A stretch of DNA of 64,000 nucleotides from Halomonas sp. JB37 (lineage in GTDB: Bacteria; Pseudomonadota; Gammaproteobacteria; Pseudomonadales; Halomonadaceae): NCBI RefSeq assembly GCF_002332255.1, contig NZ_NRGW01000001.1:3534001-3598000 (forward strand), given 5' to 3'. The translations under genes were made by a program, and so were the position numbers. Positions 2,053-13,792 of the stretch are shown here, piece after piece. The stretch's first letter is position 1, and each line of letters opens with the position of its first letter. Under the pieces are notes generated by a model. The model worked only from the letters and a program-made list of their open reading frames with translations, searched no databases and was not told the origin of the DNA.

Positions 2053-2241
2053 TCACTCCACTTCGTTTTCGCTATTCTTTTCACGCTGAATGCGCTGATA
2101 AATCTCTTCACGGTGAACCGATACATCTTTCGGCGCATTAACGCCGATACGCACTTGATTACCTTTCACACCTAGCACCGTGACGGTCATTTCATCACCG
2201 ATCATCAGGGTTTCGCCAACACGGCGAGTTAGGATGAGCAT
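2053..2241 (-). CDS. csrA: Carbon storage regulator CsrA/RsmA
   Basis: A 62-residue RNA-binding protein beginning [16 protein letters not shown], the near-invariant CsrA start, and containing the VRIGV and VHREEIY segments that form the GGA-binding surface. The dimer binds GGA motifs in mRNA leaders and controls carbon flux, motility and biofilm genes. A good ribosome site (AAGGAG) precedes the ATG and itself holds a GGA, so autoregulation is possible. The order alaS-lysC-csrA-tRNA-Ser-tRNA-Arg is conserved in many Gammaproteobacteria. The candidate antagonist RNA is at 12067-12239. Confidence 0.97.
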
Positions 2242-11634: not shown

Positions 11635-11958
11635 ATGACGTTTGTCGTTACCGAGAACTGCATCCAGTGCAAATACACCGACTGTGTGGAAGTCTGCCCG
11701 GTCGACTGCTTCTATGAAGGCCCGAACTTTCTGGTTATTCATCCGGATGAGTGTATTGATTGCGCACTGTGTGAGCCCGAGTGCCCCGCCGAAGCGATAT
11801 TCTCAGAAGATGAGTTGCCTGAAGGGCAAGAGGCCTTTATTGAGATTAACGCTGAGCTAGCAGATGTATGGCCGAACATAGCCGAAAGAAAAGATGCGCT
11901 ACCCGATGCTGAAGAATGGGACGGCAAGCCAGGCAAGATGGAAAAACTAGAGCGCTGA
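11635..11958 (+). CDS. fdxA: Seven-iron ferredoxin FdxA
   Basis: A 107-residue ferredoxin starting [17 protein letters not shown]. The Cys pattern (C-x7-C-x3-CP and later C-x2-C-x2-C-x3-CP) provides ligands for one 3Fe-4S and one 4Fe-4S cluster. The acidic C-terminal extension is normal for this type. It is an electron carrier whose partner is not shown by the sequence. mutS-fdxA followed by a regulatory RNA gene matches Pseudomonas, where rsmZ adjoins fdxA. Confidence 0.96.
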
Positions 11959-11990
11959 GCGCAGCATTTTTCTTAACCTAGCATTTGTTA

Positions 11991-12016
11991 AACCAGCGGC
12001 TACGCTGGTTTTTTTA
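11991..12016 (+). terminator. fdxA terminator
   Basis: Arms AACCAGCG/CGCTGGTT with a GCTA loop followed by a run of T: a canonical intrinsic terminator 33 bp past the fdxA stop. Confidence 0.9.
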
Positions 12017-12066: not shown

Positions 12067-12239
12067 AAAAAAAGGCGACCCTTAGGCCGCCCACTCCAAG
12101 CACTTCCTCTGACCACTCCCTAGGTCACACCCCTCTCGGAAAACGTCCTTGCCAGTAATCACTCCACTAATTACCAGGCGCCTCCGATCTTTCATCCTAT
12201 TGCATCCTGCCTAAAGCATCCCTGCCTCCCCTTGTCCTG
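12067..12239 (-). ncRNA. CsrB/RsmZ-type CsrA-sequestering small RNA (candidate)
   Basis: This stretch has no credible ORF. Read on the minus strand it holds 11 GGA motifs in about 170 nt, in contexts such as AGGATG, TGGAGT, CGGAGG and AGGAAG: the hallmark of RNAs that titrate CsrA/RsmA. It ends in a terminator (GGCGGCC TAAG GGTCGCC then T7) at 12067-12090. A CACAAT -10-like hexamer at 12250-12245 predicts a start near 12239. Two GacA-like boxes lie about 180 bp upstream, the spacing seen in Pseudomonas rsm promoters, and the fdxA neighbour also matches rsmZ. The 5' end is inferred. Confidence 0.82.
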
Positions 12240-12286
12240 ATCGCATTGTGGCAGATCTCGGCGGCTTCTCAACATGACCATAACGC

Positions 12287-12313
12287 AAAAAGGCGAGTCA
12301 TATCGACTCGCCT
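12287..12313 (-). terminator. eno terminator hairpin
   Basis: Arms AGGCGAGT/ACTCGCCT with a CATATCG loop, followed on the minus strand by TTTTT. It ends eno transcripts before they reach the small RNA gene, so that RNA is transcribed independently. Confidence 0.85.
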
Positions 12314-12409
12314 TTCAACGATTATAATTTAAAAAACAATAGCTTAAGTTTTAGCTAGCGGCAAATGTAGTATTTTCTTACCCTAACCAGAGCGATTTTC
12401 GTCGGAATT

Positions 12410-12449
12410 TGTACGACATCTCTTACAAAATTTTGAGACATCTCTTACA
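12410..12449 (-). promoter_or_regulatory. Two tandem GacA-like upstream activating boxes
   Basis: Read on the minus strand, two 18-mers resemble the GacA consensus TGTAAG-N6-CTTACA: TGTAAG-AGATGT-CGTACA (12427-12410) and TGTAAG-AGATGT-CTCAAA (12449-12432). Left halves and spacers are identical, right halves are 5/6 and 4/6, and the repeats are 22 bp apart, about two helical turns. They sit in the eno 3' untranslated region, about 180 bp upstream of the predicted small-RNA start. Confidence 0.7.

Positions 12450-12481: not shown

Positions 12482-13792
<1,311 letters not shown>

Follow-up and report, generated by a model that had tools for sequence, protein, structure and literature searches.

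The gap between the ferredoxin gene fdxA and the enolase gene eno of Halomonas sp. JB37 raises the question of whether a small RNA that titrates CsrA is encoded there, how such an RNA would be controlled, and to which of the known RNAs it is related. The window analysed here is a stretch of 64,000 nt (assembly GCF_002332255.1, contig NZ_NRGW01000001.1, positions 3,534,001–3,598,000 of the forward strand), and coordinates are window-based. We consider, with a probability of about 90%, that the gap holds an RsmZ-type, CsrA-titrating small RNA of the Halomonas/Vreelandella lineage, which would be activated by GacA via tandem boxes.

Locus and Elements of the RNA Gene

The gap measures 523 bp, from the end of fdxA (11635–11958, plus strand) to the end of eno (12482–13771, minus strand), and has no listed open reading frame of at least 60 amino acids, which agrees with the gene-free gap of some 500 bp described in the first-pass annotation. 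With mutS upstream of it, fdxA runs towards the RNA gene and is followed by a terminator-like hairpin (11990–12011, plus strand) found in the terminator scan. The eno gene is read in the same direction as the RNA gene; its own terminator-like hairpin (12287–12315, minus strand) was recognised by eye and also in the alignment of related loci, and is unlisted by the terminator scan.

The predicted small RNA occupies 12067–12239 on the minus strand (about 172 nt), as delimited by promoter and terminator scans, by conservation and by a match to the covariance model R1, and its start is an estimate, placed 6–8 nt past the −10 hexamer. A sigma-70-like promoter, TTGAGA-16-CACAAT (12245–12272, minus strand), is conserved as a sequence pattern in the alignment, and the stem of an intrinsic terminator (12073–12092, minus strand), taken from the scan and likewise kept in the alignment, is followed by a run of seven T (12067–12073). 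As sequence patterns, this intergenic RNA gene therefore has its own promoter and its own intrinsic terminator, so that the start and the terminator predicted earlier both stand.

Two GacA-like boxes had been claimed about 180 bp upstream, within the 3′ region of eno, and both are indeed located past the stop codon of eno and ahead of its terminator. Box 2 (12410–12427, minus strand) has one mismatch to TGTAAGN6CTTACA and lies 184 bp upstream, counted from the base that follows the −10 motif, and box 1 (12432–12449, minus strand), with two mismatches, is 22 bp further upstream, at about 206 bp. A box scan of the window returned 16 sites with up to three mismatches against 17 expected by chance, and the only sites with fewer than three were boxes 1 and 2.

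From these elements we infer that the RNA is transcribed, that GacA binds the boxes and that CsrA binds the RNA. Phosphorylated GacA would bind the two boxes in the eno 3′ UTR and activate the sigma-70 promoter located past the eno terminator; the GGA motifs of the resulting RNA, which are mostly predicted to be unpaired, would hold CsrA away from mRNAs, and transcription would end at the RNA’s own terminator, convergent with fdxA. The boxes are palindromic and belong to the 3′ UTR of eno, which is read in the same direction as the RNA, and this would also suit an explanation in which the GGA-rich stretch is a conserved 3′ extension of the eno mRNA and the boxes form a hairpin in it. It seems very improbable that this is the case, as the eno terminator-like hairpin separates the boxes from the RNA promoter, also in the alignment, and a conserved promoter-like pair follows beyond that hairpin, while box 1 is an imperfect palindrome at the window locus and boxes of the same kind stand before tssB and vgrG genes in other gene arrangements (see below).

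Conservation, GGA Motifs and Folding

Of 58 genomes searched with the region by BLASTN, 36 (own genome included) were matched. Among the 37 genomes of the genus 35 were matched, and the RNA part was covered in 34 (own genome included); G003 was matched through the box region only, and G009 and G031 gave no BLASTN match to the region. The alignment was made of 30 loci from these matches, including that of the window, and in it the promoter, the GGA motifs, the terminator and the boxes are better conserved than the stretch that separates the boxes from the promoter. In all 30 loci box 2 begins 174–185 bp ahead of the RNA, and a second exact TGTAAG is placed 22 bp upstream of box 2 in 29, the remaining locus having CGTAAG. 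An exact pattern derived from the alignment was found in 47 stretches of named genomes, all of which are titled Halomonas or Vreelandella. Forty of these loci were kept (seven were left out for short flanks), each of which carries upstream eno, the TGTAAG pair and a box with no more than one mismatch; fdxA is present within 700 bp in 30 of them and absent from that distance in the other 10. An upstream box of the GacA/UvrY type, as expected for this class of RNA, is thus found at the window locus and at all 40 named loci that were kept, and in general each element on which the first-pass annotation had based its interpretation is present and conserved, its spacing being constant across the aligned relatives.

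The eleven GGA motifs counted earlier were confirmed. In segments of 176 nt taken every 10 nt along both strands (12,766 in all) no count was higher, and just four segments, all at the RNA locus, reached it. As proof of the RNA class the count was rejected, since 425 of 5000 dinucleotide shuffles also had 11 or more. The aligned loci carry 8–13 GGA motifs each, and in the predicted folds of the 30 sequences 225 of 303 motifs are mostly unpaired, the mean unpaired fraction of all bases being 0.45; the RNA is thus GGA-rich with its motifs largely in predicted loops or single strands, as in the class. The single-sequence fold is only modestly better than that of shuffles (z = −1.53; 16 of 200 shuffles were as good). 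The consensus structure has 47 pairs, with 97.2% of cells able to pair (99.7% in helix 8, the terminator helix), and 16 of the 47 pairs change on both sides. Shuffles gave 6.6 such pairs on average and slid controls never more than 6, in a comparison that is biased in favour of the structure because this was derived from the same alignment. It is conservation, and not the GGA count or the single-sequence fold, that sets the RNA locus above chance.

These features also bear on the idea that a real small RNA is made here but works chiefly through base pairing, with fdxA mRNA as one possible partner, and not on CsrA. The convergence with fdxA would suit such action, and antisense pairing with a neighbouring ferredoxin-type gene has been proposed for CsrR2 of Alcanivorax (PMC9788540). 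What is conserved, on the other hand, are GGA motifs that are mostly unpaired, and the RNA ends near 12067, 109 bp beyond the fdxA stop codon and past the fdxA terminator, so terminated fdxA and RNA transcripts should not overlap. We give this idea very little weight and keep to an RNA that would act on CsrA.

Family Assignment

The first-pass annotation had named an Rfam/Infernal scan as a check, and on this point it found no backing. At gathering thresholds no csr or rsm match was obtained in the window, and a scan of the region up to E = 10 gave none over the RNA body, with CsrB (RF00018) and CsrC (RF00084) included; a CsrC line at E ≤ 10, of 9.3 bits, fell on the eno terminator. The 14 homologous loci also had no Rfam match, which leaves the RNA outside RF00166, and RF00166 did not match anywhere in the own genome at E = 0.001. 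Rfam was consequently set aside as proof of identity, and because no Rfam family matches, the identity of the RNA rests on its anatomy and its position.

The covariance model R1 was built from the 30 aligned loci, own sequence included. On the window it matches 12067–12243 with 150 bits, this sequence being among its 30 training sequences, and it finds the RNA in nine of ten sampled genomes of the family (own genome included; four of the nine are from the training set); all nine loci also contain mutS, fdxA and eno. Weak R1 matches (up to 33.1 bits) in 24 other genomes of the order were not counted as homologues, since none of the 21 such loci that were fetched has fdxA, eno or mutS. No second copy was found by R1 in the own genome at E = 0.001, with 11 of 682 first-look candidates scored.

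Among 244 genomes of the order, nine have RF00166 matches above the cut-off, ten matches in total. Seven of the ten are convergent with, and lie after, mutS–fdxA, and all ten have a box with at most one mismatch at −178 to −190; among weaker RF00166 places, 10 of 18 are convergent with fdxA, two of them in one genome. The RNA of the window occupies the same position, convergent with fdxA and downstream of mutS, and the adjacency to fdxA that had been likened to Pseudomonas rsmZ is thus shared with most over-cut-off loci of the order. Given the common position, control geometry and motif, the best reading is that the RNA is a positional orthologue of RsmZ, even though RF00166 does not match it. 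Since the position is shared with the Pseudomonas type, this suggests that one ancestral RsmZ locus has been retained, with the RNA sequence diverging beyond the Rfam model.

CsrA, GacA and the Sensor Kinase

The csrA gene, encoding the predicted protein partner of the RNA, is present in the window as had been claimed (2053–2241, minus strand), and its product scores 119.6 bits (cut-off 73). GacA is encoded elsewhere in the genome (292.9 bits, cut-off 280), adjoining a gene recognised by eye as uvrC. The domain PF09984, which we take to be the sensor domain of BarA/GacS, was searched for in the genome and was not found; it was therefore dropped as a marker of GacS, and a hybrid kinase was scanned instead. 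This kinase has HAMP, HisKA, ATPase, receiver and Hpt domains, is encoded beside PdxJ (recognised by eye), and has BarA as its best match (635 bits, below the cut-off of 890). As the scanned piece of 869 amino acids lacked the 5′ end of the gene (the open frame is 929 amino acids), the BarA-like kinase is likely, and not proven, to be GacS.

Another genus of the family, g23, provides two genomes that are informative with respect to the boxes. Their best response regulators reach 67 and 108 bits for GacA, compared with 243–293 bits in six other genomes tested, and at the same fdxA–eno locus (L090, L091) they have a GGA RNA with a weak R1 match (36–40 bits), and in the 300 bp preceding it no box was seen even when four mismatches were allowed. 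These genomes would tie the boxes to GacA, in one lineage. Four other genomes, in each of which 150 first-look candidates were scored in the RNA search, speak against a simple rule that GacA and the RNA occur together. G009 and G165 have a GacA-like protein that stays under the cut-off of 280 (257 and 243 bits) and no RNA match at E = 0.1 (G009 also has no perfect box), and G003 and G031 have GacA together with RNA matches of only about 17.7 bits.

GacA-Type Boxes near Type VI Secretion Genes

Across 25 genomes of the genus, 95 copies of the perfect 18-bp box were counted, against three of the reversed pattern, and many of the boxes adjoin type VI secretion genes. In 20 genomes of the genus there are 72 perfect boxes: 13 at the RNA, eight at hcp–tssB, 14 before vgrG and 37 elsewhere (loci L192–L197, chosen via a box-region match, lie outside these 20 genomes and were left out of the tally). 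Two further tests began from the genes and not from the boxes. For tssB, found in 17 of 41 genomes of the genus, a perfect box is located 227–261 bp before the ATG in 16, and the seventeenth has one with a single mismatch at 239 bp; in the own genome the perfect box is at C1:1105533–1105550 (L003, 1501–1518), between the divergent hcp and tssB. For vgrG, 30 of 40 places were fetched (L243–L272) and 400 bp upstream examined, and boxes with up to two mismatches precede 19 of the 30 (12 perfect, four with one mismatch, three with two), the other 11 having none. With at most one mismatch allowed, no box was obtained in 30 control windows inside the gene, or upstream of the 30 genes with the reversed pattern. 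All 11 box-less vgrG genes belong to the tssB cluster, where they follow tssB, on its contig and strand, at a distance of 19.8–21.1 kb, a position held by none of the 19 with a box. The own genome has a one-mismatch box before a separate vgrG (L244), and in several vgrG promoters three boxes, half or whole, follow one another every 22 bp.

We lean towards the reading that GacA of Halomonas/Vreelandella directly activates type VI secretion as well as the RsmZ-type RNA, the boxes, often phased by 22 bp, probably driving the tssB-led cluster and the separate vgrG genes. GacA would then form a coherent feed-forward loop, in which it promotes type VI transcription on one branch and, on the other, the small RNA that restrains CsrA.

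Some further sites of this kind were noted. In G007, a perfect box (L072, 1553–1570) with a half-site 23 bp away is located near large open frames. In the own genome, C1:624724 (L041, 1501–1518) and C1:3358717 (L063, 1518–1535) are perfect palindromes with stems extended by C/G, and these may be transcript hairpins. Perfect palindromes such as those before a gene recognised by eye as ribosomal S15-like (L054, L216) may be transcript hairpins too, and were not counted as GacA targets.

In P. aeruginosa, Gac control of type VI secretion is described as passing via RsmY/RsmZ and RsmA (PMC10482370). The two K1 type VI promoters of P. putida are less active in a gacS mutant (PMC9993120), so promoter-level effects of Gac on type VI secretion are already known there, and the passages of that paper considered here contain no demonstrated GacA binding at these promoters. 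Binding studies in P. aeruginosa disagree over the direct targets of GacA, which are rsmY and rsmZ only as cited in PMC4682653, and many genes in PMC6610081. For Halomonas, we found no description of direct GacA boxes at type VI genes in the open-access literature searched.

Significance and Comparison with Known RNAs

GacS/GacA of Halomonas anticariensis is reported to act on quorum sensing, exopolysaccharide and biofilm (PMC7366521, citing Tahrioui 2013), and a table in the same 2020 review gives the small RNA of the Halomonas Gac system as unknown. The open-access literature searched yielded no paper describing an RNA of the fdxA–eno locus in Halomonas. The RNA described here is a candidate for this missing RNA, with a sequence, a promoter and control boxes. 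It appears to be RsmZ-type in Halomonas/Vreelandella and is unannotated and unmatched by Rfam, and R1 detects it in a family where Rfam does not. The boxes, in turn, point to a testable GacA regulon that takes in type VI secretion.

CsrB is longer than the Halomonas RNA and is found at another locus, and neither CsrB nor CsrC has an Rfam match over the latter. The likeness to these E. coli RNAs is in the expected mode of action and in activation by a regulator of the GacA type, as CsrB and CsrC are activated by UvrY, the GacA orthologue, through an 18-bp inverted repeat (PMC4682653). CsrR2 of Alcanivorax dieselolei is similar by description only, being a CsrA-related small RNA next to a ferredoxin gene, with its own promoter and six unpaired GGA motifs, in an arrangement given as the same as that of fdxA–rsmZ (PMC9788540); the term GacA is absent from the text of that paper.

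RsmZ (RF00166) differs from the Halomonas RNA in length (118–137 nt in ten loci, compared with about 172 nt) and in the number of GGA motifs (6–9 in the same loci, compared with 11 in the window and 8–13 in its homologues). Eno is upstream of the Halomonas RNA and was not found in the RF00166 loci of about 3.1 kb, and the Halomonas boxes form a tandem pair, spaced by 22 bp, within the 3′ UTR of eno. What the two share is the locus, with the RNA convergent with fdxA and after mutS, a GacA box 178–190 bp upstream, the GGA motifs and the terminator; the conserved fdxA–rsmZ organisation has been described in Pseudomonas (PMC9788540), and fdxA and mutS are both named in a figure legend on rsmZ regions (PMC4353343).
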